Notes under the pieces: generated by a model
Seen by the model: only the letters and a program-made list of their open reading frames with translations
The model's database searches: none
Told to the model about the DNA's origin: nothing
Translations under genes and position numbers: made by a program
In this document: one piece after another, positions 4,644-27,604 of the stretch
How the letters are laid out: the number at the start of each line of letters is the position of its first letter
Position numbering within the stretch: position 1 is the first letter of the stretch
DNA from: a virus
Strand: one strand, 5' to 3'
IMG/VR virus record: IMGVR_UViG_3300027977_000136
Span: 1 to 30,652 of that record
Length of the DNA: 30,652 nucleotides

Positions 4644-4853
4644 ATGAGCACCACCACAGCACCCAGCGCCGCCGAGAGCGCCACGTTTGACCAATGGCTT
4701 GCCTACTACACGGAGCGTTTCACCCGCCTGCCTGATGACGCCCTGAAGGGCTATTGGTGGCTTTATGGCCGCGACAGTGAGACGCTAGGCACGCCACGCG
4801 ATGAGGCGGCATGGGCCGCCGTCAATGCCGCAATGCAAGAACGCGACCTATAA
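4644..4853 (+). CDS. Small acidic protein of unknown function (69 aa)
   Basis: The start at 4644 follows GAGAGGAACC about 8 nt upstream. An upstream in-frame start at 4596 lacks a ribosome site. The N-terminus is a low-complexity STTTAPSAAESA stretch. Then come two helices, FDQWLAYYTERFTRLPDDALKGYWWLYGRD and PRDEAAWAAVNAAMQERDL, rich in aromatic and acidic residues. It looks like a small protein-binding module. I do not recognise the family. A 97-nt gap with a short hairpin (stem GCCGGG/CCCGGC, 4884-4900) separates it from the next gene. Confidence 0.65.
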   Translation: MSTTTAPSAAESATFDQWLAYYTERFTRLPDDALKGYWWLYGRDSETLGTPRDEAAWAAVNAAMQERDL

Positions 4854-4950
4854 CGTCGAAACGCGCTCTGGTGCGCGTCGCCAGCCGGGCGGCTCCCGGC
4901 GGCCTGATGAGACAAGCCGATACAATCATCTAACCGAAGGGACACTACCC

Positions 4951-5238
4951 ATGACACGCAAATACACCATCATCGAGAGCAACAGCGGCCTCGTCTGGGG
5001 CACTGTCGTCGCCGACACCCTCACAGACGCCTGCCGCATCATTGACGAAAACATCGGCGCTCATGGCTGCACATATGAAGAAAGTGGCCGCAGCGTCATT
5101 GGCAGCGTCATTGGCAGCGGCAAGGACCATTATATCGTCCATATCGACGACACATACATCGACTACATGGCGGACGATTACGACGCTGTGCGCGCCCTGC
5201 CAATCGCTGGCTATGTCGTGCGTACCTACGCCGCCTGA
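4951..5238 (+). CDS. Small alpha/beta protein of unknown function (95 aa)
   Basis: This is the last gene of the first early cluster. The ATG at 4951 follows CGAAGGGAC. The protein starts MTRKYTIIESNSGLVWGTVVADTL. A helix follows (TDACRIIDENIG), then a short tandem repeat SVIGSVIGS, and then strands with DHYIVHIDDTYIDYMADDYD. The repeat comes from a 12-nt tandem duplication (GGCAGCGTCATT) near 5098-5125. The acidic sequence and alpha/beta pattern give no clear family. A strong intrinsic terminator starts 23 nt after the stop, so this gene closes the transcript. Confidence 0.75.
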   Translation: MTRKYTIIESNSGLVWGTVVADTLTDACRIIDENIGAHGCTYEESGRSVIGSVIGSGKDHYIVHIDDTYIDYMADDYDAVRALPIAGYVVRTYAA

Positions 5239-5261
5239 TAGGTCAGCCCCACCCCCACTAA

Positions 5262-5290
5262 GCCCGCCCTCACCCGGCGGGCTTTTCTTT
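5262..5290 (+). terminator. Intrinsic terminator of the first early cluster
   Basis: The stem GCCCGCC (5262-5268) pairs with GGCGGGC (5276-5282) across a 7-nt loop, followed directly by TTTTCTTT (5283-5290). This is a textbook rho-independent terminator 23 nt after the last gene. A further small stem GCCCG/CGGGC with a GAAA loop follows at 5291-5304. Confidence 0.85.
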
Positions 5291-5304: not shown

Positions 5305-5532
5305 CGCACAGCGCCGCCAGCATCGCGCTGGCACCTGCACCACCCCCAGCACCCGGACGCGCTCAGCGGGCTTTAAAATCGCTGCCAGCCGCGCCCAGCC
5401 CGCCGCCGCCCCGGCGCCACGCCCACGCGCCCCCGCCCCCGGCTTCGCCGCAAGAGCTTGTCCGCCGCCCCTCCCCCCGCTGAATTACCGGATGAACGCC
5501 GCGATGAACGTAACGTGCAGTAATACAGCCTA
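5305..5532. other. GC-rich gap with no gene
   Basis: This is a strongly pyrimidine-rich, C-rich stretch on the plus strand between the terminator and the AT-rich island. The frames open here translate to low-complexity Pro/Ala/Arg sequence without ribosome sites. I see no RNA gene or protein gene in it. Confidence 0.5.
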
Positions 5533-5553
5533 AGAGCCTGTTTCTATTGGATA

Positions 5554-5577
5554 TTTTTTCCAAACATACGGAAAAAA
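5554..5577. repeat. 8-bp inverted repeat in the AT-rich island
   Basis: TTTTTTCC (5554-5561) and GGAAAAAA (5570-5577) are perfect complements separated by 8 nt. The element could form a weak hairpin, or be a protein site. It is not a good terminator, since the stem is mostly A-T. Confidence 0.5.
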
Positions 5578-5618
5578 CGCAAATAAAACGGGGTCTGTAT
5601 GACTTATAAGCCTTTGTT

Positions 5619-5647
5619 TTTACATATCTTTTCCTTATTATTATTAT
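5619..5647 (+). promoter_or_regulatory. Possible sigma70-type promoter in the AT-rich island
   Basis: TTTACA (5619-5624, five of six to consensus), 17 nt, then TATTAT (5642-5647, five of six). It would transcribe rightward through the island toward the cluster starting at 6100, leaving a leader of over 400 nt. AT-rich DNA gives such matches by chance, so confidence is limited. Confidence 0.35.
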
Positions 5648-5809
5648 AAATAAAACAAGAAAAATATATATAACCCCAATAGGATTTTTAGTGTATTGGT
5701 TAACTAATACAGGGGGTATGTCTATCTATATGGGGCTATGTCTTTTTAAAATCCGTTTTATTTTCACATTAACAGCCTTTTTATCGAGCGTTTTCAGTGG
5801 CTTAAGAGC

Positions 5810-5832
5810 CATACAGCCCCTGTATGTTTTTT
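5810..5832 (+). terminator. Possible intrinsic terminator or attenuator
   Basis: CATACAG (5810-5816) and CTGTATG (5820-5826) form a 7-bp stem with a 3-nt loop, followed directly by six T (5827-5832). It lies between the candidate promoter at 5619 and the genes from 6100, so it could act as an attenuator. The stem has few G-C pairs, and the same bases belong to the ATACAG/CTGTAT repeat family. Confidence 0.4.
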
Positions 5833-6099
5833 GTCGTTTTCCGTTTGTTTCTTTTGTTTTCAATGGGTTGGGCTGTATGATTAAGGGTTCTTTAAGAAAT
5901 AGGTTTTCCCGTGGGATTGCAGGGGCTTACGTGTTTTGTGATACACTGTATCATACAGGCTTGCGTTGGTTTTCGTATAAATCCGGCATCGGTTATAAAT
6001 ACATCCGTTTATGCTGCTGATTATACTTGCATAAAAATACTTCCGCACGTAGAGATGCGTAGCGGTTTCATGACGGGCCGCTGAACTTAGGGAGCAACT

Positions 6100-6399
6100 A
6101 TGTTTGTTGGTAAGAACAGCCCTTGGGGCATTGTGCAGGACGAAGAAACCATTGCGGACGGTATCGTGTATGTGTCCACTGCATCGCATGGCGGCATCTG
6201 GGTTAGCCCGGAATTGCTGGGCCGGGTGCAGGAAGCGATGCGCGATTACGCCGCTTACTGGTCGGGTTCGTCGCAGTGGTTCGAGGAAGATTGCGCCGCG
6301 CAGTGCGTGGTCGTGTCGTTCCCGGAATACTTCTCGGCGGATCAGGTGGAGCGGGCGCAGGCGATTGTTAATCGTTATGTGCTGAAGGTGCTGGCATGA
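6100..6399 (+). CDS. Conserved phage protein, DUF7007-like (99 aa)
   Basis: This is the first gene of the second early cluster; the ATG at 6100 is preceded by AGGGAGCAACT. The sequence has the pattern I associate with the small DUF7007-type family: PWG at 8-10, VSTASHGGI at 25-33 and W-FEEDC around 60-65, then a helix with YFSADQVERAQAIVNRY. The family name is from memory and was not searched. Function unknown; these proteins occur in phages and mobile elements, often among accessory genes. The conserved His, Glu and Asp could be catalytic or metal-binding, which is a guess. The stop overlaps the start of the next tiny gene (ATGA). Confidence 0.8.
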   Translation: MFVGKNSPWGIVQDEETIADGIVYVSTASHGGIWVSPELLGRVQEAMRDYAAYWSGSSQWFEEDCAAQCVVVSFPEYFSADQVERAQAIVNRYVLKVLA

Positions 6400-10193: not shown

Positions 10194-10589
10194 ATGACGA
10201 CCGGGAACTGTGGCGCTGTCCAAGGCTTGCCTAAAAACCACAGAGGCGGTGGGAGGCATGCTCCCCCTCGTTCACCCGCCGCACCCGTCAATGCCCGGTC
10301 GTATTCCATCCGTGACATCAAGGATCGGCTGAGTCCGTCTCACATCGAGGCGCTGTGCCGTGACTGGCTGCCGGGCGGCAAGCGTCAGGGCGGCTGGTAT
10401 CTGGCGTGTGCGCCGTGGCGCGACGACCGCAACCCGTCGCTGGGCGTATCGTTCAGCACCGGGCGGTGGAAGGACTTCGCGACCGGCGAGAAGGGCGACA
10501 TGATTGATCTTTCGATGAAGCTGTTCGGAGATAATTTGCAAGATACGATCAAGGGCTTCGCCGAGATGCTGGGCCTGAGCCATGCGTAA
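10194..10589 (+). CDS. Primase N-terminal domain, zinc-less type (131 aa)
   Basis: Residues about 38-131 match the N-terminal domain of phage and plasmid DnaG-like primases that lack the zinc-binding cysteines. The marks are DWLPGGKRQGGWYLACAPWR, RNPSLGVSF and GRWKDFATGEKGDMIDL (90-106), where a CHC2 zinc finger would be in the classic enzyme. The first 35 residues are basic and of low complexity, so the true start may be later (for example a TTG at codon 12). GAGGGA lies 10 nt before the ATG. It ends 8 nt inside the next gene, which carries the TOPRIM and helicase parts. The two probably act as one replication enzyme: template binding here, synthesis and unwinding there. Confidence 0.75.
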   Translation: MTTGNCGAVQGLPKNHRGGGRHAPPRSPAAPVNARSYSIRDIKDRLSPSHIEALCRDWLPGGKRQGGWYLACAPWRDDRNPSLGVSFSTGRWKDFATGEKGDMIDLSMKLFGDNLQDTIKGFAEMLGLSHA

Positions 10590-12990
10590 GGTAGACCTGA
10601 AGGCGCTGGCGATTGCTGAGGACATCACGGCGAAGGCGGAGATTGTCACGCCCATGCCTGAGCCGGTGGTGATACCGGACACGCTGCAGAAGTCTCTTGG
10701 CCCGGAGCCGGATGCGATGTGGATCTACCGCATGGCTGATGGTGCTGCGTTCGGGGCCGTGGCGCGGTGGAACCCGCCGATGAAGCGCAAAGAGATCAGG
10801 CCGATTGTCTGGGACGGCAAGAAGTTCCTGACCTCCGGGTTCGGCAAGGATCGCCCGCTGTATAATGGCGACCTGTTGGCGGCATCGCCGACCGCGCCCG
10901 TGCTGATCGTCGAGGGCGAGAAGGCCGCCGATGGTGCAGCGCAATATGTGCCTGAGGGCTGGGTAATCACGACATGGCAGGGCGGGGCGAAGGCTGTCGA
11001 TCAGACGGACTGGAGCCTGTTGGCTGGTCACGACTGCGTGGTCTGGCCGGATAACGACACGCCGGGGATCGAGGCGGCGCTGGAGATACAGAAGATACTG
11101 GGTGAACAGCGTGTGCCGGTGTCGATTGTGACGCTGAGCGTGGTGTTTCCGGACGGCTGGGATCTGGCCGATGCGCTGCCGCTGAAGGTGAAGCCGCAGC
11201 AGATCACGGACATCCTGCGCCGGGAACTGAAGCGCGCGGCAGTGCCGGAGGCGGCGATTGCGTTGCCCGAGGCGACTGAGGATCCGGACGAGGAGGCCGC
11301 GCGTGAATGGCGACCGCTAGGATATGACCACGACGTTTATTATTTTCACTTACAGAACCGGCAGCAGGTGCTCCCGTTTCATTTGGACCGCCTGCGGACG
11401 AAGGCTGGGTGTCTTGCGATCTATGCTGATAAAAACCACTGGGCGATGCTGCAGGGGAAAACGGACGCCAAAAGCATTGACTGGGATGAGGCTGGTTCGT
11501 TGGTTATCAGGCAGTGTGAAGATGTCGGCGTGTATGATCCTGCCCGAATGCGGGGGCGGGGCGTGTGGCTGGACGAGAGGGAGGGGTCGAGGGTTATCCT
11601 GAACTCAGGGAACAGGCTGCTGGTGGCGCGTCCCGGTTGCGATACGCGGGAGGTGTCACACGTCCGAGTGAAGAGTCGCTATATCTACACGAAGGGTCAC
11701 GACCTGATTTTGGACGTTGATAAGTTCGATGCGCGCGCGACCGACGACGATGGTCGCATGATCCGCGAACTGTGCAACAAGGTGCGCTGGGAGGCGCAGA
11801 TCCACGGCGACCTGTTGGCTGGCTGGATTGCGACGGCGATTGTGTGCGGTGGTCTGGATTGGCGAACGCATGCGTGGGTGACGGGGAATCAGGGTTCGGG
11901 GAAGTCCACGGTGGTGAACATGGTGGCCGGCGCTTGCCTTGGGAACATGGCAATCTATCCGCTGGGCGCCACGACCGAGGCTGGCATCCGGCAGGTGGTA
12001 AAGAATGACGCGATCCCGGTGGTGTTCGACGAGGCGGAGACCGATGAGAAAGAAAACAAGATAGCGTCAGCGGCGCGACGCAAGGCCGTGATGGATTTGA
12101 TGCGGCAGTCGTCGAGCGAGGGCAGGGGGCGGATCCTGAAGGGGTCTGCGAACCATCAGGCGCAGTCGTTCACGATGCGGTCGTCGTTCTTGATGTCGTC
12201 GATTGGCGTGGGGCTGAAGGAGGCTGCCGACCTGACGCGCACCGCGGTGCTGACGATCAGGCCGCTGGATTCGTTCACATCAGAGGAGCGGCGCAAGAGG
12301 GAAGAGGACTTCAAGGACTTCATCGCTCTGGCCTTGTCGATTCCGAAAGACATGCCGCAGCGGTTGTTGGGCAGGCAGCTGGAGAATCTGTTCACGCTGC
12401 GCCACAACATCGTGGTCTTCAAGGAAACGATTGCCACGGTGCTGGCGAACCGCCGTATCGGCGACCAGATTGGGACGCTGTTGGCCGGATGCCACAGCCT
12501 CTACAGCACGAAGCTGTTGGATATGAAGCAGTGCGAGAAGTATCTGGCCACGGTGAACCTCGAAGACTTCCTGCAGGTGAAGGCAGAGCGCGAAGACCGG
12601 GTGCTGCTGAATCACATCGCTCAGGCGACGGTTCGGGTCGAGACGTTGCACGGCGTGCAGGATCGGACTCTTGGGGAACTGCTGATGATCTGCTTCAAAA
12701 TGGACGAACAATCAGACGTTCATCTCAAAGTGGCAGATGACACGCTGGCTCGCTACGGACTGAAGGTTGAGCGCGAGTATGCAATTCCGACGGGGGTGTG
12801 GATTGGCCAGAGCATCACGTCACTGAACAGAATTATGCAGTCGTCGGTCTATCACGAGGGCTGGGTAGGCGTGCTGTTGCGCCATCCTGCCGCGAAGAAG
12901 AGTGAGAACGCGGTCTACTTCAAGGGAACGATGTCGCGTGCAATTTTTATACCAAAAAAAGAGTGGCCAGTAGGGGTATGGGACCGATGA
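10582..12990 (+). CDS. TOPRIM-domain primase/DNA helicase (802 aa)
   Basis: This is the main replication protein. The TOPRIM signature is at about 107-160: VLIVEGEKAADG (E111, E113) and VWPDNDTPG (D157, D159), as in DnaG-type primases and topoisomerases. A P-loop ATPase follows: Walker A GNQGSGKST at 435-443 and Walker B VVFDEAE at 480-486. A DNA-contact region with RQSSSEGRGRILKGS follows. The C-terminal 250 residues are helical and end with GTMSRAIFIPKKEWPVGVW. Together this resembles DUF927/virulence-E-like primase-helicases of phages and mobile elements; I cannot separate these families without a search. It starts 8 nt inside the primase N-domain gene (ATGCGTAA), so the two are coupled. 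It should unwind DNA and lay primers at the phage fork. Confidence 0.85.
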   Translation: MRKVDLKALAIAEDITAKAEIVTPMPEPVVIPDTLQKSLGPEPDAMWIYRMADGAAFGAVARWNPPMKRKEIRPIVWDGKKFLTSGFGKDRPLYNGDLLAASPTAPVLIVEGEKAADGAAQYVPEGWVITTWQGGAKAVDQTDWSLLAGHDCVVWPDNDTPGIEAALEIQKILGEQRVPVSIVTLSVVFPDGWDLADALPLKVKPQQITDILRRELKRAAVPEAAIALPEATEDPDEEAAREWRPLGYDHDVYYFHLQNRQQVLPFHLDRLRTKAGCLAIYADKNHWAMLQGKTDAKSIDWDEAGSLVIRQCEDVGVYDPARMRGRGVWLDEREGSRVILNSGNRLLVARPGCDTREVSHVRVKSRYIYTKGHDLILDVDKFDARATDDDGRMIRELCNKVRWEAQIHGDLLAGWIATAIVCGGLDWRTHAWVTGNQGSGKSTVVNMVAGACLGNMAIYPLGATTEAGIRQVVKNDAIPVVFDEAETDEKENKIASAARRKAVMDLMRQSSSEGRGRILKGSANHQAQSFTMRSSFLMSSIGVGLKEAADLTRTAVLTIRPLDSFTSEERRKREEDFKDFIALALSIPKDMPQRLLGRQLENLFTLRHNIVVFKETIATVLANRRIGDQIGTLLAGCHSLYSTKLLDMKQCEKYLATVNLEDFLQVKAEREDRVLLNHIAQATVRVETLHGVQDRTLGELLMICFKMDEQSDVHLKVADDTLARYGLKVEREYAIPTGVWIGQSITSLNRIMQSSVYHEGWVGVLLRHPAAKKSENAVYFKGTMSRAIFIPKKEWPVGVWDR

Positions 12991-13151
12991 AGAGGGTTAG
13001 CAGTCAGGAGTTAGCGCGTAAGATGGTGCGTGATTGGCCTGATGATGTGCTGATGAAGCGCGAGCCGCGCGAGTTGGCATATACGTATGGCGTGAGTCGT
13101 TCAGAGGCTGAAAAAATCTTCAAAGAAGAACGCTTACGCCGTGATTTATAA
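12987..13151 (+). CDS. Small HTH-like protein (54 aa)
   Basis: I chose ATG 12987, which overlaps the TGA of the helicase gene (ATGA), with AGGGG about 11-14 nt upstream. An ATG at 12978 would lie too close to it. Residues about 27-47, EPRELAYTYGVSRSEAEKIF, fit a helix-turn-helix. The remaining sequence is basic and helical (MVRDWPDDVLMKRE and KEERLRRDL). It may bind DNA near the replication genes; this is an inference from the HTH-like stretch. Confidence 0.55.
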   Translation: MKRVSSQELARKMVRDWPDDVLMKREPRELAYTYGVSRSEAEKIFKEERLRRDL

Positions 13152-13201: not shown

Positions 13202-13429
13202 ATGACGTTTAAAATCGAAGATGGTTACGAGATCCCTGCAGAGCGGCAGCCCCGCAAGCGCCGGGCGAAGTATCCTTGGAACGAACTGAATGTGGGTCAG
13301 AGCTTCTTCGTTGACGGCGCAAAGCTGCGCTCGATGAGCAGCACTGCGTCACACGCTGGTCGTCGTTTGAGTCGTAAGTTTGTTGTGCGTAACGCTGAAC
13401 ATGGCGTCCGCGTTTGGCGTCTTGAATGA
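13202..13429 (+). CDS. Conserved small phage protein, DUF7303-like (75 aa)
   Basis: A strong ribosome site (GGAGG, 5 nt before the start) precedes the ATG at 13202. The sequence is basic: RQPRKRRAKYPWNELNVGQS (14-33), FFVDGAKLRSM, HAGRRLSRKFVVRN and a final VRVWRL. The order KYPW-x4-VGQSFFV, then a Ser/Arg helix, then GVRVWR is the pattern I remember for a recurrent phage family (DUF7303; not verified). These proteins are short, beta-rich and likely to bind nucleic acid. Function unknown. It is the first gene after a promoter candidate. Confidence 0.75.
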   Translation: MTFKIEDGYEIPAERQPRKRRAKYPWNELNVGQSFFVDGAKLRSMSSTASHAGRRLSRKFVVRNAEHGVRVWRLE

Positions 13430-13630: not shown

Positions 13631-14173
13631 ATGACCATGAGTAGTTCCAGCGGATCTTTACCGCGCCACTATTACGTGTGGGTGGACTCGTCATTCCTGC
13701 GTGAGCATGGCGCCGGATACGAACCGGCGGTTTGGTTTGGCCTACATAGCCATCCGGGCCGCGCGTGGGGGTGTCATGTTATGCTGGAGTGCGGTGCATT
13801 CTATCGTGGCCTGCCACCCCACGCCATCAGCTTCAGCGCCGATCCGGCATGCACCGACTGGACGCTGCCGCAGGCGCAGATCTGGGATTGCTACGGCACG
13901 GACTTCTCGCTGCTGGTCTATGACTATCTGGACGGGCTACGGGTGCGGGTGAAGAGCGGCGAGGCTGGCGAGTATCTGTTCACGGCGGTGCCGCAGAACG
14001 ATGCGTTCACGCATGAGCCCAGTCAAGGTAAAGAGTTTATGTTCATCCGCACCATTAATGATCGGTTGACCATCGTGCCAACGAATGATCTTTTGTTTGA
14101 AGAGCGTAGCTTTACCGTCGATAAGGGCTGGCCGAGCCTTAAGCGATCCGCTGAGGTTTGGTCATGCGAATGA
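13631..14173 (+). CDS. Conserved protein of unknown function (180 aa)
   Basis: The frame begins ATGACCATG (13631 and 13637). The nearest good ribosome site (GAGGGGG) is better placed for an ATG at 13624 that encodes only MANDHE before a stop, so translation may be coupled. The protein is beta-rich and aromatic: RHYYVWVDSSFLREHG, GYEPAVWFGLHSHPGRAWGC, HVMLECGAFYRGLPPHAISF, WDCYGTDFSLLVYDYLDGL and a C-terminal RSAEVWSCE. The pattern VWFGL-x-SxPxRxWGCHVMLECGA-x-YRGLP is one I associate with conserved phage proteins of unknown role. Conserved Cys, His and Trp could form an active site, but no known motif fits. Confidence 0.75.
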   Translation: MTMSSSSGSLPRHYYVWVDSSFLREHGAGYEPAVWFGLHSHPGRAWGCHVMLECGAFYRGLPPHAISFSADPACTDWTLPQAQIWDCYGTDFSLLVYDYLDGLRVRVKSGEAGEYLFTAVPQNDAFTHEPSQGKEFMFIRTINDRLTIVPTNDLLFEERSFTVDKGWPSLKRSAEVWSCE

Positions 14174-14308
14174 AGAATGCGAATATGCGCCATCCGCGCG
14201 ACTGACTTGGACGGGCCGGGAAGACTTTCCAGTAATTGGAGAGTCGGCACGTCGCCCCCCGCTGGCAGACCGGGCCAAGGTGTCTGCCACTCCCTCTGAG
14301 GACATACA

Positions 14309-18821: not shown

Positions 18822-18849
18822 AGCAGGCGGCCTTAACGGGTCGCCTGCT
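18822..18849. terminator. Hairpin between converging gene blocks
   Basis: AGCAGGCGGCC (18822-18832) pairs with GGTCGCCTGCT (18839-18849), an 11-bp stem with one G-T pair and a 6-nt loop. The stop codon of the 2153-aa gene (TAA on the minus strand) lies in the loop. On the minus strand TTT follows; on the plus strand no T-run follows. It lies exactly where the rightward early block and leftward late block meet, so a role in ending one or both transcripts is likely. Confidence 0.45.
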
Positions 18850-21800
18850 CCACCTGATTGTAGACCCGGTTGAAGCGCACGAACTCTGCGTCGGTGCGTT
18901 CCCGAAGAGCCTCAAGGCGCTCAGCCTTGCTACCCTCATCGATGTCCAGATTCCGAATGCGCTTGCGTTCTTCGTTCAGTTTACGAACCGCAGAGCGGGC
19001 GCTGGTCAAGGCCGACTGAACACGCGGATTAGTTTCCGCCGGGAACTTCTCAATCAGCGCCCGCCGCTCAAGACCGGTCAGATCCTTCATCTGCTGGTTC
19101 ACGACGCGCGCTCTCTCTTCGCGTTCGTAATACTCGCCGACATTACGCCCCTTACCCGGTTGGCCAACAAGACGACGGACCACAGGAGCGGCCACGACAT
19201 CGCCTTCTTCGCCCGTCCGATAGAGCGACTTGGCCAGATTGGTCACGCCACCGAAGGCGAACTCTGTGAGGTATTCAAAGCTCTCGGCAGGTGCATTCAG
19301 GTTGCCCTTGAGTTTACCCTCTCCGCCGCTGATGTCGTTCAGGAACTGGGACAGTTCTTTATATCCTTCGGGCGTATTGAACCGGGCGACGGAGGCGTAG
19401 GACTGACCCTTGTCGAACGGCTCGTTGTAGATCGGCTTGCCCATGAAGTTCTCATTGAGCATGAGTTCAACGAACGGCTTGCCCATCGTGGGCGTCACTG
19501 CGCGGGCAACCGAACTGGGGATATTGCCGGCACCGAACTGGACCGGGGAGAAGTTGCCAAGGCCAGCAGTCACGATGTCCAGACCGACAGCGCCGAGATC
19601 GTCACCGCGACGAGCTGCGTCCATCGTCCGGGTCGCCAGATAGGGGAAGAAGCCAAAGCCGTAGGGCATCGGGATCTTGGTATAGGTCTTCCCGTCGAGC
19701 GGGTTCATGATGATAAGGTTGCGCTCTTTCTCGTAGTCCGGGATCTTATCCCAGAAGAGCTTGCCGTCATCGTCCTCGTCAGACATGGCCGCGTTCGCAG
19801 CTGCCAGCGTGGCAGCCGTGGTCATCATGCCAAGCAGCGCCGCCTGCGTGGTGGACAGCTTGCCGGTCTTGAACGGGTTGTTCGACAGCGCCCGCGCCGT
19901 GCGGACGCTACCCTGAACCCCGGCATTGAAGAAGGCGTACAGGGCGTTCAGCAGGGCGCCAGCTTCACCGCGGCGGTTGAAGTCCACAGTCGCCTCACGG
20001 GCAATCATAGCCGCCTGCTCGCGGGTCATGCCGACTTTAATTGCAGCGCGATAGGCGGCGAAGCGGATGCCGTTCTCGAAGATAGCGTTGGTGCTTTCGA
20101 GGGCGCCGACCATAGCGCGGAAGCTCTTGCTTGTGGGCTTCCACAGAGCGTCAATGGTCTCCTTGGCGCCCTTGGCGTCCTTGATGTCCTTCAGCCGTTC
20201 GTCGAGCGTCTTCAGGTCATCCTGAATGCGGGCAGCCGCCTCTTGCGGAGTTTCGCGTTGTGCCCATGACACTGAGCCACCGTCCAGTTTGAACTGCTCG
20301 TACAGGTCGCGCAAGGCGGGATCGCCTCCGGACCTCCCGTATTCAAACGCGGCAATGCTACGGAATGCCTTCCTGTCCCTCACGTTCTTGCTGAAAGCCT
20401 TGGCCAGACCCGGGGCGTCAGCCGCGAGGTTCAGCGCAGCGGACTGCAGATCCCGGAAGACGTTCGGCACGAAGAAGTCCGGGTTCGCCGTCGTGAACGA
20501 ACGCGACAGCAGACGCGTCACCTTGTTTGAAAGCTCTAGGAACGCATTCATCTGCGTCGGGTTCAGATTCTTTGCAGCCTTCTGGAGCAAGGGGTCCTCG
20601 ATGCGCAGGTAGAACGTCTCACCGCCACGCTTCACCACCATGAAGTTTGGATCACGAGGATCGGGACGCCGGATGTTGCCGTTCCGGTCGCGCGGAGGAT
20701 TGCGGTCGCTGAAGACGCGCCATTCGTTGGACGGATTCCTGATAAAGAAATCCATCATCTTCTGACCGACACGGTTACGTTCACCGCGAACGATGCGAGC
20801 GCCGACGTCAGACATGAACGTGCCATACGGGGAGAACGGCAACGTCTTGCGACCGCGACGCTGATTCCACTCGTTCTTGGTAATGGAGAAGCCTGCGCCT
20901 CCGGACATCATCTCCTCATAGGAATCACCCTGATCGTCCATCAGAGCGAAGTCTGCATCAGAGAGATACTGCCCCGCCTTGGTCTTGCCCTTCACCGGAA
21001 CATAGTGGGGGATTGCCTTGAACATTTCGTCGGCGACCTTGCGCGACTTCACACCGCGAGCAACGTCGTTATCCAGCGCCCACTTCACGGAGTCCCGATG
21101 AACCTTCGCAATGTCTTTCCAAGCCTGCCCCTTGGGGCCATTCTCCAACGGATCCACCTCATCAAAGGCGTCCTTGTTGGAAATACCAGACCCCGACAGT
21201 AGGGTCGTGTTAGCCTTTTTGTACTCAGCGAGGATGGCCGCATCAATCGCCGGGTCTGGGTGCGACCACCGCGGCTGATCCGGGGTCCAGTCCCGCTCAC
21301 GCTGGTTCATGTCGAAGTTCGGATTCGTCCCATTGACCTTGGTCATGATCGCCGGATCGCCGCCCTTCTTCGTGACAAGGCGACCGATTTCCCGCATCTC
21401 AAAGTCGGCATTTATCTCCGGAGCCGCCTTCGAATAGAGATACAGATCGATGTCGTTCATCCCGAAGCCAGCGTTGCGGGCGATCTCCTTGATCTTCTTA
21501 CCGAAGTCCCGCTCGAACTTCTGCATCAGTTCGCCGGCACGACTGTCGAACTTGCGGGCAGCCTCGTAGAAACCCTCGATGCCGGCGGCCAGTTGGCCAA
21601 GGCTCTGCACAACGCGCAGGCGCTCGAAACGGTCGACTAGCTTGCGAGAGTAGCGTTGAAGGCGCGTTTCTTTTGGCAGCGTGAGACTGGGCGGCAGCTG
21701 CGACGGCGGGAACAGCGACTGCTGCGGACCTGACGGAGGTGGACCAGACGGCGGAGGCGGAGGCGAGCGTCCACGCATTTGCGCGTTGCTGGAGAACAGG

Positions 21801-24800
21801 TCACCCTGCGTCGGTCCCTGTTTCCCGGGAGCGGGCGCCCCCATAATGGCCCTGTAGTCGGCCTCAGTGGCCTCGAACAGCGGGTTGATGATTTCAATAA
21901 GATGGCTGAGAGCCGACACATCGCCATCAGGGATACCAAGCATGCTCTTGAACATGGCGATAAACCGATGGAACAAGTTTTTCCCGGGTCCAACCTTGAT
22001 GCTACGCAGATAATCCTGCGCTTTGCCGTTGGTCATACCCCACGCCAGAAACTCATCGAGGTTAGTAAAGACGTTGCTGTCGCGTTCGTACCAAGACTTT
22101 TCCAGTTCGTTTAGCTCCGCCCCAGACTTAACCCGCTCGTTAAAGTGCTTAACGACTGTATTGCGTAAGTCGTTCAATTCCTTAACAAATGCGTCAATCT
22201 TCGGGGTGTTCCGTCCAAGACGACGGGCAAGAATGAACGCAGCAGAAACTGCATGCAACGCTTCATGGAGGACAACCTCCGAAGTGTTACCCGCGCTATT
22301 TTCACCTAAGGATGGTGAGCGGAAATAAACATCTATCGTATTGGCTTTAAGATCCGTGTCCACCAGACCATACGCGCGTCCACGGGCGATTCTTGTCGGA
22401 GCGGGATCTCCTTCCTGAAGAATGTGTAGCTTAACCTTCAGCCCAGCGCGCTCAGCCTCACTTAGAAGCGTTGAGATCCGGCCCGCCAAGTACATGTCGT
22501 ACTGACTGAACTTATCGTCAAAGTTGGCAAAAATTTCTTCCAGCATATCGGAGAGAGTGCCGCCCCGATATTTGTCGATGTCCATACGGACGCCGCCGAC
22601 AAGGCCGCCGGGCCGCACCTCGGACAGCATGTCTCCCTGATCGCGGCTGGCGTCGAACATGCCGCCTTCCTGCTGATCGAAGGCCTCCTGATTGCCGCGC
22701 CGCATCTGCGACTGCTGCAAGCGCGCCTGCATTTCGGCACGCTGGCGTTCGGTCATGCCCCCTGCCGGGACGGCCTGAGCAGCCTCTAGTCCGAGCGAGC
22801 CTTCTTCCCCTTGCGGAGCAGTGCCCGCAGGTTGTTCGCGGTCCGCTTGGCCTTGGCCCGTGTCTCCGGGTGCAGCCGCTTGTCCACCGACGCCCGGTTC
22901 AGCAGTGCTATCTTCGATATTGGTGACAGGGCCATCAGGGAATTCCTCTTGTCCAGCATCATATTCCGAGTAGTCGCGCGCCTCGGCCATGACTTCTTCA
23001 AACTGCTCGTTCACATAATCAACGATGCCCTGCAGAGGGTCGCCATCAGCGCCGATCCGCTCAGCGATGGCGCGCATATCGGTATCGGTCAGATCAACGC
23101 CAAGATCGCTTGCCTCCCGAGAGACAGCCTCCACCGTCGCCTCGAAGCCGTAATCCTCCTCCTGAACTTCCTGCTCATAAGGACGCCCGGTGGTTGGGTC
23201 GTACCTTGACGCGTCTCTGTTGATGAGGTCAGCAAGAGCCTCAGGTGTGACATAGCCGTTCTCATCAAGGGCCTCACCGTAGAGGTCCCAGTCCTTGGGC
23301 TGGAATCCCATCGCAAGGTCGGCAAAGTCTTTCAGGTTCTCGTCGATCTGGCGACGGTTCTGGACCACCTTGCCGTCGCGACCGCGCGTCAGCTTCTCCT
23401 TGCCAAACATGCGGCGAAGATCGGCGCGGCTGTTCAGCCAGTCTGGATCGACGCCGTGATAGACAGCGCTCTCAAAGCTATAGCGATCTTGGCCCTTCTT
23501 AAATGTCTTCGCGATCTGGGCGATGTACGCCTGCATCGTGGTCGCGGCCTTAGGAGGGGCCGGTAGCTTTTGAGCGCGAGGCGGCTTAGCGGGAGCGGGT
23601 GCGGGCGCAGGGGTAGGTGTAGGTTCGGGCGCTGGCATGGCAACCGGCGCAGGCGCACTCGGTTTAAAGATTCTCGAATCATCAGACGGCGGTGGCGGCG
23701 CAGGTTCGGGTTCGGGCGCAGGCCGACCGGACGGCTGGAAAATCCTACTAACAGGCGCAGGCGCGGGCGCAGGTGCGGTAGCAGGCGCGGCGCCAATCGG
23801 GCGCACATTTGCGCCACTGGTATCTTCGCCGATTCTGCTTGCAATAATTTGCTCGTCGGACATGCCGGCCTCGACTTGACCGCTCACATCGATAAGCTGC
23901 TCACCGCGCATAATGTATGCGCCGTCAGGACGGCGAACGATCCTAACCTGCTCCGGCCCCTCGGAGTCGATGGCGTCGTCAATGACGTATTCGTTAATGA
24001 TGGGCTTAGCGCGCTCAGCAGGCGCGGGCGCAGGCTCCGCGACTGGCTCCGCGACAGCTACAGGCGCCGCAGCGGGCCTCTGCGTTGCTTCCCACTCAGC
24101 ACGCGGGATGACCTCAAAGCTACCATCCGGCTGTTCGATGATTACTTCTTCGGCGTCAATCGTCACGGTCGGGCCAGCTGGGCCAGCAGGCGGCGGCTCA
24201 GAGGCGGGAGGAGCGCCGAAAGGCGTGGCCGGGACGCCGGTCTCGGGCTCAGGCTCAGGCTCCCCAGTCGGCGGCGGCGGCTCCGTTCCCGGCTCAGCTT
24301 CCGGCCCACGCAGCCCGCTAATAGCGCCTGCTCCACCACCCATCGTGCCGCCAAGGATCAGACCAGCAGCCGCGCGACCGCCGAGATCTTCGGTCAATGC
24401 CACGTTCGGATCGACGGCCTGCGCGCCGATGTTCTCAGCAACGCCCTGCCCGGTTTCCTGAACGATTTCGGTGCCGCCTTCACGAATAGCGCCTTCAGCG
24501 CCGCCACGAATTACACCGCGACGCAGGCCGCCGGTCAGCAGCGCAGCTTCGAGACCAAGCGGGCCGGTGGCAGCCGCAATCGGAGCAGCGACCGCAGCAG
24601 CGCGGCGAGCAGCAGAGATAGCCGCAGCGTTACGCGCCTCTTCAAGTGTGGCGCCTTCCGCGATGGCAGCCTGATACGCGTCTGAGCGCGCCACCACTTC
24701 CTGCGGCATCTGGCTCACGCGGTCGTAGGTAGCCTGCGCCGCATCGCCACCAACGATGGCGGCCTCGCCAGTGGCAGCACCTGCCAGAGCGCCACGCTTT

Positions 24801-25294
24801 GCTGCCTGCTGGCCAATCAGACGCCCAGCCAGAGCGCGACCAGCAAGGCCAGCGCCGCCCGTGCCGATCATAGCCGGCGCCGTCTGTGCGATGCCTGCCG
24901 CGAGCGACAGGGGATCAGTCAGAAGCTCTTTGGCCTGCTGCCCGAAGCCAGAGAGGAAGCCTTCCTTCTCGGCCTCCGCCACGCGTGCTGCCTGCTGGCG
25001 CTGACGCTCACGGAAAGCCTCTGTCTGGAGTTCTTCGCCAAACTCCTCAACGGCTTTACCGGCGCGCGTGGAGATGTTGTCCATGTCGCCGGTAACAAGG
25101 CCGGCAAGCTGACCCGGAAGCGATACGATCTGACCGGCGCCGCGAATGGCAGCGCCGCCTACGTCGCGGAGGAAAGAGGTTTCCTCGTCTTCCTTCTTCT
25201 TCGGTGCAAACGGATCGAAATCGACCGGCTTCAGTGAGACTTTGCTCGAAGCTGGCGCGAATGGATCGTAATCGACCGGCTTGTAGCGAACCAT
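18833..25294 (-). CDS. Very large polyvalent virion protein with HExxH motif (2153 aa)
   Basis: This is a giant multidomain protein, probably packed in the particle and ejected with the DNA. The first 31 residues carry a duplicated KPVD[YF]DPFAP box (5-14, 22-31). About 43-335 is Ala/Gly-rich with hydrophobic stretches, as in phage ejection proteins. About 335-580 is a Pro/Ala/Glu linker. A zincin motif HEALH is at 1010-1014 (VVLHEALHAVSAAF). After a second linker rich in Pro and Ser come helical regions. The region from about 1600 (FVPNVFRDLQSAALNLAAD) to the end resembles the LPD38-type domain of large polyvalent proteins, with a hydrophobic segment near 1815-1840 and a coiled-coil end. AAGGGCTGAGAG precedes the ATG. 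The domain names are from memory; virion location is inferred from context. Confidence 0.75.
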   Translation of the reverse strand: MVRYKPVDYDPFAPASSKVSLKPVDFDPFAPKKKEDEETSFLRDVGGAAIRGAGQIVSLPGQLAGLVTGDMDNISTRAGKAVEEFGEELQTEAFRERQRQQAARVAEAEKEGFLSGFGQQAKELLTDPLSLAAGIAQTAPAMIGTGGAGLAGRALAGRLIGQQAAKRGALAGAATGEAAIVGGDAAQATYDRVSQMPQEVVARSDAYQAAIAEGATLEEARNAAAISAARRAAAVAAPIAAATGPLGLEAALLTGGLRRGVIRGGAEGAIREGGTEIVQETGQGVAENIGAQAVDPNVALTEDLGGRAAAGLILGGTMGGGAGAISGLRGPEAEPGTEPPPPTGEPEPEPETGVPATPFGAPPASEPPPAGPAGPTVTIDAEEVIIEQPDGSFEVIPRAEWEATQRPAAAPVAVAEPVAEPAPAPAERAKPIINEYVIDDAIDSEGPEQVRIVRRPDGAYIMRGEQLIDVSGQVEAGMSDEQIIASRIGEDTSGANVRPIGAAPATAPAPAPAPVSRIFQPSGRPAPEPEPAPPPPSDDSRIFKPSAPAPVAMPAPEPTPTPAPAPAPAKPPRAQKLPAPPKAATTMQAYIAQIAKTFKKGQDRYSFESAVYHGVDPDWLNSRADLRRMFGKEKLTRGRDGKVVQNRRQIDENLKDFADLAMGFQPKDWDLYGEALDENGYVTPEALADLINRDASRYDPTTGRPYEQEVQEEDYGFEATVEAVSREASDLGVDLTDTDMRAIAERIGADGDPLQGIVDYVNEQFEEVMAEARDYSEYDAGQEEFPDGPVTNIEDSTAEPGVGGQAAAPGDTGQGQADREQPAGTAPQGEEGSLGLEAAQAVPAGGMTERQRAEMQARLQQSQMRRGNQEAFDQQEGGMFDASRDQGDMLSEVRPGGLVGGVRMDIDKYRGGTLSDMLEEIFANFDDKFSQYDMYLAGRISTLLSEAERAGLKVKLHILQEGDPAPTRIARGRAYGLVDTDLKANTIDVYFRSPSLGENSAGNTSEVVLHEALHAVSAAFILARRLGRNTPKIDAFVKELNDLRNTVVKHFNERVKSGAELNELEKSWYERDSNVFTNLDEFLAWGMTNGKAQDYLRSIKVGPGKNLFHRFIAMFKSMLGIPDGDVSALSHLIEIINPLFEATEADYRAIMGAPAPGKQGPTQGDLFSSNAQMRGRSPPPPPSGPPPSGPQQSLFPPSQLPPSLTLPKETRLQRYSRKLVDRFERLRVVQSLGQLAAGIEGFYEAARKFDSRAGELMQKFERDFGKKIKEIARNAGFGMNDIDLYLYSKAAPEINADFEMREIGRLVTKKGGDPAIMTKVNGTNPNFDMNQRERDWTPDQPRWSHPDPAIDAAILAEYKKANTTLLSGSGISNKDAFDEVDPLENGPKGQAWKDIAKVHRDSVKWALDNDVARGVKSRKVADEMFKAIPHYVPVKGKTKAGQYLSDADFALMDDQGDSYEEMMSGGAGFSITKNEWNQRRGRKTLPFSPYGTFMSDVGARIVRGERNRVGQKMMDFFIRNPSNEWRVFSDRNPPRDRNGNIRRPDPRDPNFMVVKRGGETFYLRIEDPLLQKAAKNLNPTQMNAFLELSNKVTRLLSRSFTTANPDFFVPNVFRDLQSAALNLAADAPGLAKAFSKNVRDRKAFRSIAAFEYGRSGGDPALRDLYEQFKLDGGSVSWAQRETPQEAAARIQDDLKTLDERLKDIKDAKGAKETIDALWKPTSKSFRAMVGALESTNAIFENGIRFAAYRAAIKVGMTREQAAMIAREATVDFNRRGEAGALLNALYAFFNAGVQGSVRTARALSNNPFKTGKLSTTQAALLGMMTTAATLAAANAAMSDEDDDGKLFWDKIPDYEKERNLIIMNPLDGKTYTKIPMPYGFGFFPYLATRTMDAARRGDDLGAVGLDIVTAGLGNFSPVQFGAGNIPSSVARAVTPTMGKPFVELMLNENFMGKPIYNEPFDKGQSYASVARFNTPEGYKELSQFLNDISGGEGKLKGNLNAPAESFEYLTEFAFGGVTNLAKSLYRTGEEGDVVAAPVVRRLVGQPGKGRNVGEYYEREERARVVNQQMKDLTGLERRALIEKFPAETNPRVQSALTSARSAVRKLNEERKRIRNLDIDEGSKAERLEALRERTDAEFVRFNRVYNQVEQATR

Positions 25295-25307: not shown

Positions 25308-26633
25308 TTAACCGACCTGCAAATACTTACCCGGTCGCTTCGGATCTGGCACGTAGTATTTTCCATCGGGAGCGAGGCGCGCCCCGGCAACGGGAGGCTT
25401 CCTTCCGCCGGTAAGCGCGCCAACCGAGGGATTGCGTCCGCCAATGTACGGGGTGAAACCCTGAGTCCGCTCTAGCTCGGCTGAGTATCCTTCTAGCTGG
25501 GCCTTAGTCGCCAGATAATCATCAACGGTTTTTGGGTCCGCCTCCCTCAGCGCTTGCATTGTAGCGCCGGGATTGGCCGCGCGCAAAGCCTCATACCTTG
25601 CCGCCGCTCCGCGATACCGGGCAGCAGCCTTGCCTGTTTCAGCGCGGTCGGCGCGACCTTCAACGTCGACCCTGCCATCTCCACGGCCTTCACGGTTTGA
25701 CGCATTAATCCGAGCGAGAGCGACAAGCCTGTCCAGCTTAGCCATCTCAGGAGCGTTCTTTAAATTAAACTCAGCCGTGCCAACGTCTGCCTCACCCTTA
25801 CGCAGCCGCAGCGGAGTTTCGATGTCCTCAATCGCCGCCTTGCGGCCCTCATCACTCATGCCCTGAATATCGCGCGCACGCTGCAGAGCGGCATCGCGTG
25901 CCCGCTCCTGCATATTATAGCGATCAATCATCGCCTGCTCGCGCGCCTCAGCGATGCTTTCAGCGCCTTCTTCGCCCGCGCGGCGAGACCGGCCATACTC
26001 CTGAACCCCGGTCTGTAGACCCCGCGCTAACGCCTCCGCGAAGCGCTCACCGCGGCGCCCCTGAGCCATGGCAGCCCCGCCCGCAATCAGAGCCTCGAAC
26101 GGCGAACGGGCCCTAGCTTCGGCCAGCAACTCTTCACGGCGACCAAGACGCGCCTGACGCCCCTCCAAAGCAGCGCGCACTTCTTCGGGGATCTCAGCTT
26201 CGGGACTGCCCTCTGCTCGTGCCAAGGCGGCAAGCCTGTTGGCCTGCTCCTGCAGGGTAGCCAGACGGATCTGAGCCATCATATCTGGCTTCTGGCCGGC
26301 CATCGCATTCTCGGCGGCGGCACGCTCAGCCATAACCCTGTCCAGTTCCGGCTGATAACGCGACGGACGCGACGCTGCGCGCTGCGGCGCCATCTCCGCG
26401 GTCGGCTTAGGCGCCACTAACTGAACACCCGGCTGCATCGGGGCGGGGGTGGCAGGCGTCACCGTTCGCGGCGGCACAACCATCAGCGCATTTCCGATGG
26501 CAGTATCCGGCGCGCCCGCGGATTCAGCAATGATCTGCTGCACAAGGTCTTCCAGACCCAGACCGTTGTTCTGCCCGGACCTGATCCTCTGCTCCGCGAG
26601 AGCGCGAGCCTTTCTAATATCCATAGCGGCCAT
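25308..26633 (-). CDS. Coiled-coil virion-associated protein (441 aa)
   Basis: This is an Ala/Arg/Glu-rich protein that is largely coiled coil between about 100 and 360. It has RSGQNNGLGLEDLVQQIIAE near the N-terminus, a Pro-rich linker (about 50-90), a small Ala/Gly stretch (EALIAGGAAMAQGRRGERFA), and a Gly/Pro-rich C-terminus ending PDGKYYVPDPKRPGKYLQVG. AAGGA lies before the ATG, and its start overlaps the upstream stop by one base (TGATG). Its position between a tail-region protein and the 2153-aa protein suggests an internal virion or ejection protein. No family is recognised with confidence. The gap to the next gene is only 13 nt. Confidence 0.7.
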   Translation of the reverse strand: MAAMDIRKARALAEQRIRSGQNNGLGLEDLVQQIIAESAGAPDTAIGNALMVVPPRTVTPATPAPMQPGVQLVAPKPTAEMAPQRAASRPSRYQPELDRVMAERAAAENAMAGQKPDMMAQIRLATLQEQANRLAALARAEGSPEAEIPEEVRAALEGRQARLGRREELLAEARARSPFEALIAGGAAMAQGRRGERFAEALARGLQTGVQEYGRSRRAGEEGAESIAEAREQAMIDRYNMQERARDAALQRARDIQGMSDEGRKAAIEDIETPLRLRKGEADVGTAEFNLKNAPEMAKLDRLVALARINASNREGRGDGRVDVEGRADRAETGKAAARYRGAAARYEALRAANPGATMQALREADPKTVDDYLATKAQLEGYSAELERTQGFTPYIGGRNPSVGALTGGRKPPVAGARLAPDGKYYVPDPKRPGKYLQVG

Positions 26634-27604
26634 CAGCGCACATCCTTCAGCCAGCCAAGCCCGTGCATCGGGCTCTTCAGGTTACGCTTCCCATCCTTGA
26701 CGGGGCTTTCAATCTTGCCGCCCTCTTTCTTGAACAGGCCGGTTAGCCAGCCCGACTTACCGAAGCCGCCGGTCGCACCGATCGTGCCCAGAAGTGTAGC
26801 CCCAAGACCCAGAGCAGAACCAAAGCCAGACGTGCCCGGCTCGGTGCTAATCCGAGTTCCAGAACCCTGCGCCGAAGGCTGGCCGCCAATGTTAGCCAAC
26901 TGCTGAATCTGCGTGAGCGGGTAATCACGCTGACGCTCGAAGTCGCGATACGCCAGATCAGCCGACGTCTGTGCCAGTTCCTGACGTTTTGCGCCAATCG
27001 ACTCCAGACCAGACAGTTCACGCAGGCGCCGGTCTTCAGCCGTGTCACCCAACTGCGCATACTGCTGCGCCCCCGTCAGCGCGCGGCTGGCTTCAGTGCC
27101 ATACAGATCGGCGCCAGACTTATAGGCGTCGGCCATCGCTTCCATCTGCTTGCCAAGCGCCGCCGACTGCGTGTCGCGAACGGCACGACGCGTGAACTCC
27201 GCACTGCGCGAGCCACCGAACGTGCCGCCGCCAATAAAGGTGCGATTCAACTGGGGCAGGATATTCTCGGAAAGGTTCCGCGCCGCGGTCGAACCGATGC
27301 CAGAGATGACGTTCTGGATGTACGGGTTCATGTACTGCTGCGAAACGCCGGGATCCGTGAACGACCCTGTGCCGCGACCGACAGCCTCCGTCGCCGCATT
27401 GATGTACGGCTGATACGAGCCCATCCCCTGCTTGTAGAGATCGAACGCCTGCTGCTGCTCCTGCTGGAACGGCGCGATACGAGGGGCGTTATACATCTGG
27501 TACGGCTGCGAAGTGGCAGCGGTCGCCTTGCTCAGAACGTCCTTCGCGTACTGCTCATACCATGCCGGCAGGATGGTCTGCGTCTGGGTAGTCTGCGTGG
27601 CCAT
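26633..27604 (-). CDS. Tail/ejection-region structural protein (323 aa)
   Basis: The N-terminus is LPAWYEQYAKDVLSKATA with PRIAPFQQEQQQAFDLYKQG; the middle is QLNRTFIGGGTFGGSRSAEF and a helix with RRAVRDTQSAALGKQMEAMA. I recognise this combination (a Phe/Gly-rich loop then a long helix) from phage structural proteins next to ejection genes. The C-terminal part has a hydrophobic Gly-rich stretch (GFGSALGLGATLLGTIGATG) that could insert in a membrane, then a basic end. GGAGG lies about 9 nt before the ATG. It overlaps the previous stop by one base (TAATG) and the next start by one base. Exact role unknown. Confidence 0.7.
   Translation of the reverse strand: MATQTTQTQTILPAWYEQYAKDVLSKATAATSQPYQMYNAPRIAPFQQEQQQAFDLYKQGMGSYQPYINAATEAVGRGTGSFTDPGVSQQYMNPYIQNVISGIGSTAARNLSENILPQLNRTFIGGGTFGGSRSAEFTRRAVRDTQSAALGKQMEAMADAYKSGADLYGTEASRALTGAQQYAQLGDTAEDRRLRELSGLESIGAKRQELAQTSADLAYRDFERQRDYPLTQIQQLANIGGQPSAQGSGTRISTEPGTSGFGSALGLGATLLGTIGATGGFGKSGWLTGLFKKEGGKIESPVKDGKRNLKSPMHGLGWLKDVR

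Follow-up and report, generated by a model that had tools for sequence, protein, structure and literature searches.

The C-terminal domain of the SCCmec protein Cch2 binds a putative origin with AAGTG iterons located downstream of the Cch2 gene (PMC7581432). In PLE, a Vibrio satellite with a RepA_N initiator, the initiator's DNA-binding domain and the origin type covary among close relatives, and the origin swaps were probably selected by an origin-cutting phage nuclease, Odn (PMC8263062). For most sequenced tailed phages, no origin is known. Here, we analysed an IMG/VR virus record of 30,652 bp (the window), whose genes include RecE/RecT, an SF2 helicase, a primase-helicase and virion-type proteins, and which has no close DNA match in the phage collection. 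Among the virion-type genes, positions 18833–25294 on the minus strand encode a 2153-aa protein with PHROG matches to virion RNA polymerase, DarB-like antirestriction protein and endolysin; it is probably a giant virion protein that is injected. An AT-rich island of this window contains an array of short repeats (5521–5958, no strand assigned) that is very likely to be a replication origin whose iterons the phage's own initiator reads through its C-terminal domain.

The island has a GC content of 33–35%, compared to 60% for the genome. An initial annotation had reported eight copies of ATACAG or its complement CTGTAT here, well under one being expected by chance, and every one of the eight positions is exact. 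Within a 500-bp island, the eight copies compare with a mean of 0.22 and a maximum of 3 in 2000 dinucleotide shuffles, and none of the 2000 island shuffles contained eight copies of any hexamer containing all four letters. The whole window holds 19 copies where 6.7 are expected, a number reached in none of 100 shuffles. The annotation had suggested testing whether the hexamer is enriched only here; its density is 16 copies per kb inside the island and 0.36 per kb in the rest of the window.

To find relatives, we scanned with the window primase and obtained 32 loci, some on contigs of about 55 kb. In these relatives the island is kept in place, some 4.4–7 kb upstream of the primase (initiator) gene, but the word found there differs by clade. 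Clade A, to which the window belongs, has the word YGTATKA, clade B YGTTTCA and clade C YGTGACA. Clade A phages, with initiators 87–99% identical to that of the window, carry ATACAG six to eight times; clade B (75–81% identity) carries GTTTCA eight to eleven times, and clade C (about 67–68%) carries GTGACA about ten times, with just two exact copies in one clade C locus (L081). The islands can be aligned across the three clades. In homologous columns the strand and the YGT are usually unchanged and the bases after YGT are switched, with some columns kept in two clades only. Because strand and YGT persist at aligned sites where the following bases change, the array has been rewritten in place. 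Clade B islands contain a few clade C words besides their own and, judged by their sequences, look like an intermediate. The word apparently changed together with the protein that seems to read it.

The comparison also shows that the repeated word is wider than ATACAG: the annotated copies are real, and the variant CCGTTTTA occurs in addition at 5584–5591 and 5753–5760. Since these variants occupy positions of full clade B and C words, the window holds about 12 sites rather than eight. On the left of the array, an iteron CTGTATTA on the minus strand (5521–5528, previously given as 5523) corresponds to CCGTGACA or GTGTTTCA in clade B and TTGTGACA in clade C. It is followed by a degenerate iteron CCGTATGT (5564–5571, minus; clade B CTGTTTCA, clade C CCGTGACA), the first CCGTTTTA variant (5584–5591, minus; clade B GTGTGACA or CTGTTTCA, clade C TCGTGACA) and an iteron CTGTATGA (5595–5602, plus; clade B CCGTTTCA, clade C ATGTGACA). 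An AT-rich core of about 22% GC, the putative melting region (5603–5704, no strand assigned), has a degenerate site TTGTTTTA inside it (5651–5658, minus). Beyond the core lie a second CTGTATTA (5705–5712, minus; previously 5707), the second CCGTTTTA variant (5753–5760, plus; clade B CCGTTTCA, clade C CCGTGACA), CTGTATGG (5809–5816, minus; previously 5811), CTGTATGT (5820–5827, plus), CTGTATGA (5873–5880, plus; clade B CCGTGACA or CTGTTTCA, clade C CCGTGACA), CTGTATCA (5946–5953, plus) and a last CTGTATGA (5951–5958, minus; previously 5953). Three sites thus extend to CTGTATGA, as had been claimed. Counting exact sites only, the window array is divided 2|6 around a 112-bp gap with a core of 22% GC, which is the two-set arrangement of PICI/SaPI origins. 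Within clade A, 55 of 61 columns inside sites are invariant, compared to 280 of 389 between sites.

Some sites had been described as paired inverted repeats, and those at 5809–5816 and 5820–5827 do form such a pair. The hairpin followed by six T that had been noted at this place, CATACAGCCCCTGTATG and then TTTTTT at 5810–5832, is present, but there is no clear excess of terminator-like sites over shuffles (3 versus 1.7). We rejected the hairpin as a terminator and consider it rather as two inverted iterons; clade B lacks the pairing. The observation that no protein fits the island also holds: its sole long ORF (5691–6020) is interrupted by stop codons in three of four close relatives, and its substitutions fall at all codon positions with no clear codon-position bias, which rules out a coding island. 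DnaA boxes (TTWTNCACA) do not cluster here, with no exact copy and one-mismatch matches at chance level, and an origin based on them was likewise rejected.

The proposed initiator is a fusion of a TOPRIM primase and an AAA+ helicase, encoded on the plus strand (10582–12990) about 4.6 kb downstream of the window array. Directly behind it follow a 54-aa helix-turn-helix (HTH)-like ORF that overlaps its end (12987–13151, plus) and a 75-aa DUF7303 ORF (13202–13429, plus). Of 24 conserved window genes, the initiator and these two ORFs alone show higher similarity among clade A phages than to any phage of clade B, i.e., they follow the word class. The conserved genes between array and initiator do not, nor does the CHC2 zinc-finger primase subunit gene (10194–10589, plus). 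As only these three genes follow the word, array and initiator cassette have been co-inherited across freely recombining DNA. The 54-aa ORF diverges between word classes faster than the initiator itself.

We next looked at which part of the initiator goes with the word. The protein consists of a TOPRIM domain (residues ~45–200), an AAA+ domain (~380–668), a C-terminal winged-helix-like region (669–742) and a tail (743–802). Across 38 loci, and with the rest of the protein taken into account, word similarity tracks the C-terminal region (partial r 0.395, permutation p 0.002) and does not track TOPRIM (partial r −0.045, p 0.65); a stretch at residues ~388–424 also scores in this test. Residues 677, 758 and 762, as well as 801 at the end, are invariant inside each of the three clades but differ from one clade to another; the clades are also related by descent. 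The mid domain (residues 240–380) differs most between clades A and B, yet it was rejected as the reader: two phages that share a word (G002 and G011) reach only 63% identity in this domain, and of the residues that are fixed in both B and C, few differ in it.

An AF2 model of the initiator built from 61 sequences had a mean pLDDT of 85, whereas a model from 16 sequences reached a pLDDT of 55 and gave no useful fold match. Read from its secondary structure, the modelled C-terminal segment (671–742; helix-hairpin-helix-helix-hairpin) looks like a winged helix. The closest structure (VIA) to residues 243–801 was SCCmec Cch (5dgk; Z 14.9 over 427 residues), although the AAA+ part alone cannot decide between Cch and MCM because MCM helicases follow closely there. 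Foldseek additionally matched the model to SaPIbov1 Rep (8tch) and PriRep1 (7pds), and PriRep was also matched by sequence (E-value of 4.8e-8). The predicted structure therefore has the AAA+ self-loading helicase fold of SaPIbov1 Rep, Cch and PriRep, while its N-terminal part matches the T7 primase.

To determine how widespread such arrays were, we collected 80 loci with homologous primases in a profile scan, added named relatives from the phage collection, and searched for one over-represented hexamer on both strands, calling an array strong at LLR>=14. Strong arrays were found in 50 of 90 related loci, and just seven other sequence windows in 1.42 Mb were as strong. About 40 of the 90 loci had no array at LLR>=14, which incomplete loci explain in some cases and not in others. 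The scan recovered the annotated type-1 repeats of P4 in ori and crr, found nothing strong in lambda, and in T7 scored only in the terminal repeat region. Dozens of distant phages thus carry a one-word, two-strand array of 6–17 sites near a TOPRIM-primase/AAA+ helicase gene, often directly behind it; in many loci the array starts at most ~130 bp from the initiator stop codon. In Bordetella PY223, Pseudomonas ZRG1, Bdellovibrio phi1422, Serratia MQ-4 and Burkholderia Mica, the arrays lie in or over annotated non-coding gaps. Array-bearing TOPRIM fusions were also paired with VapE-like, D5 and AAA_25 helicases.

The word cores comprise about six bases, mostly with a pyrimidine in front. GT occupied positions 1–2 or 2–3 in one orientation in 45 of 50 words, compared to 19 of 107 second-best words, with whichever orientation fits being counted for words and control alike; the Fisher p of 1e-18 for this rule is too optimistic because the loci are not independent. 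Among the distinct words listed, 28 of 30 fit. The TCTGCA and ATGGTC arrays break the rule. The TCTGCA arrays have 10–13 copies and an otherwise similar layout (L148:170–447, L149:3682–4017 and L154:12277–12560). Two arrays (L095 and L100) failed the two-strand filter, nearly all of their sites being on one strand; in the first, a phage with a homologous primase, GTCTGG occurs eight times in same-strand tandem (L095:16451–16543). In BPP-1 (L217, ~26401–26850), both strands together carry five copies of CCTCGT/ACGAGG near the DNA primase gene bbp29, possibly an origin of this kind that stays below the threshold. A Streptococcus suis contig (L206, ~13801–14250) has 13 copies of TGTCCC, distributed over both strands, close to an SF2 helicase homologue, apparently an array of this kind in a Gram-positive element.

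Most arrays are divided into two sets around a gap of 66–181 bp, and the GC content of the core was lower than that of the locus in 45 of 51 arrays. Perfect mirroring, 6|6 over all twelve sites, occurs in L096 and phi1422, and in a clade B phage (L011) 10 of 11 sites are mirrored (p 0.005). With six sites per side, each side might accommodate one hexamer. As a general rule, mirror symmetry holds in part only, reaching p<0.05 in just 6 of 37 arrays, and the exact-word array of the window is not mirror-symmetric.

The initial annotation had suggested checking for a turning point of the GC skew at 5.5–6.1 kb, and the cumulative minimum falls at 5677. A minimum in or beside the island was found in six of eight related records (the window, G001, G002, G004, G007 and G011). 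Unlike in clades A and B, the minimum in clade C (L111–L113, i.e., G003, and L116–L117, i.e., G012) lies about 2 kb to the left of the array. As distant phages usually have an array without a turning point, GC skew as a general mark of such arrays was not borne out. At third codon positions, plus-strand ORFs just left of the island have skews of −0.07, −0.25 and −0.74, and plus-strand genes to the right are mostly positive, so gene orientation alone does not explain the minimum; the left-side values come from few ORFs, and one ORF farther left, of doubtful coding status, is positive.

The flanking genes also bear on whether the words could be operators, bound by a phage repressor or activator instead of the initiator and controlling the early operon that starts at 6100. 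Phage operators are often grouped, sites of the island occur in inverted pairs, and the rightmost two (5946–5958, present in clade A alone) lie next to a stretch of high conservation upstream of gene 6100. Conversely, the nearest ORFs on the left (4644–5238) point towards the island, and this plus-strand cluster is closed before it by a terminator-like hairpin (5260–5284, plus). The initially proposed role in controlling two flanking early clusters thus fits poorly, and a divergent promoter region was rejected because of the orientation of the left ORFs. Moreover, no other conserved regulator follows the word class, distant phages have the array behind the primase-helicase gene, and gene 6100 keeps 92% identity in a phage whose word is different. 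We consider an operator array improbable, while a side role in the control of the rightward operon is possible.

Somewhat less probable still is that the small HTH-like protein reads the word and the initiator merely travels along. Its identity follows the word class, with 89% within clade A, 53–81% to B and 37–41% to C, and it resembles a helix-turn-helix, albeit with a weak Pfam match (E-value of 0.081). Its homologues were found in this group and its nearest relatives only (L128–L131), and not in the many distant phages with arrays, where the words track the C-terminal region of the initiator. It is very improbable that the words are primase recognition sites gathered where priming begins. 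GTC is the T7 primase site and GT is common to T4 and T7 primase sites, so that the GT of the words and the T7-type TOPRIM fusion would both match; but no residue within 1–200 of the initiator separates clades A and B, and their CHC2 subunits are ~90% identical, while their words differ. Word similarity is also independent of TOPRIM identity, and the words are clustered rather than scattered along the genome. Chance in AT-rich DNA, where some hexamers are favoured, is refuted both by the shuffles, none of which reached the count in the island, and by the conservation and rewriting of the array in relatives, and can practically be dismissed.

A replication origin with iteron-like repeats, the other proposal of the initial annotation, is supported by the conservation of the array and its rewriting in place, and further by the linkage to a self-loading helicase type of initiator, the arrangement in two sets with an AT-rich core between them, and the skew minimum. 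We infer that replication could start as follows. Some twelve 8-bp iterons, each composed of YGT and three lineage-specific bases and mostly ending in A, flank the core in two sets and would be bound by the C-terminal region of the primase-helicase (10582–12990). Helicase rings would then form at both sides, the core would melt, and forks would depart both ways, with the fused primase and the CHC2 subunit together providing the primers.

More broadly, tailed phages might share a GT-anchored family of origins, with one word per lineage read by the C-terminal domain of a TOPRIM-helicase initiator, and with whole arrays rewritten one site at a time, through mixed intermediates as in clade B, as the reader changes, perhaps in escape from origin-stealing satellites or origin-cutting nucleases. 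This generalisation is tentative, and we rate its chances at slightly under even. If true, matching words to readers from sequence alone could provide origins for hundreds of uncultured phages. The proposed origin by itself already suggests a simple origin finder, a search of both strands for one enriched word near a TOPRIM-helicase gene. It would also extend to tailed phages an origin layout thought special to PICIs, and close relatives with different words are natural pairs for studying a joint change of specificity in a DNA-binding protein and a dozen sites.

How does this locus compare with the known systems? The lambda O protein is likewise a phage initiator with iterons, but these are four 18-bp direct repeats within the O gene, and O carries no helicase. 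PLE RepA_N offers a precedent for the covariation of reader and origin and for a selective cause; its initiator is unrelated, its iterons are ~30 bp long, and modules are exchanged rather than sites rewritten singly. P4 has 8-bp type-1 repeats on both strands and, in alpha, a primase-helicase fusion, but two cis regions where we found one array; against the initiator profile, only the N-terminal zinc ribbon of a single alpha sequence aligned. SCCmec Cch is the best whole-domain structural match of the initiator, yet Cch lacks the TOPRIM primase fusion, and only three iterons are present there. SaPI and PICI Rep (Pri-Rep) origins have short iterons in two sets with an AT-rich region, read by the C-terminal domain of an AAA+ initiator whose fold, in SaPIbov1 Rep and PriRep1, our model resembles, and many distant relatives carry the array directly 3′ of the initiator gene, as PICIs do. 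In the window, by contrast, the array lies 4.6 kb upstream of that gene, the initiator is fused to a DnaG/T7-type TOPRIM primase, and the hosts of these arrays are tailed phages, not satellites. PICIs are satellites without virion genes; the window encodes giant virion-type and DNA-ejection proteins and related contigs reach ~55 kb, so the element is not a PICI. A literature search, with most subscription journals outside its coverage, found no paper on tailed-phage origins of this type among the hits listed. What is new is the tailed-phage setting, the placement of the array in the window clade, and the replacement of the word one site at a time, with a mixed intermediate. The island is best explained as working like the Rep-ori of PICIs and SaPIs and the alpha-ori of P4.
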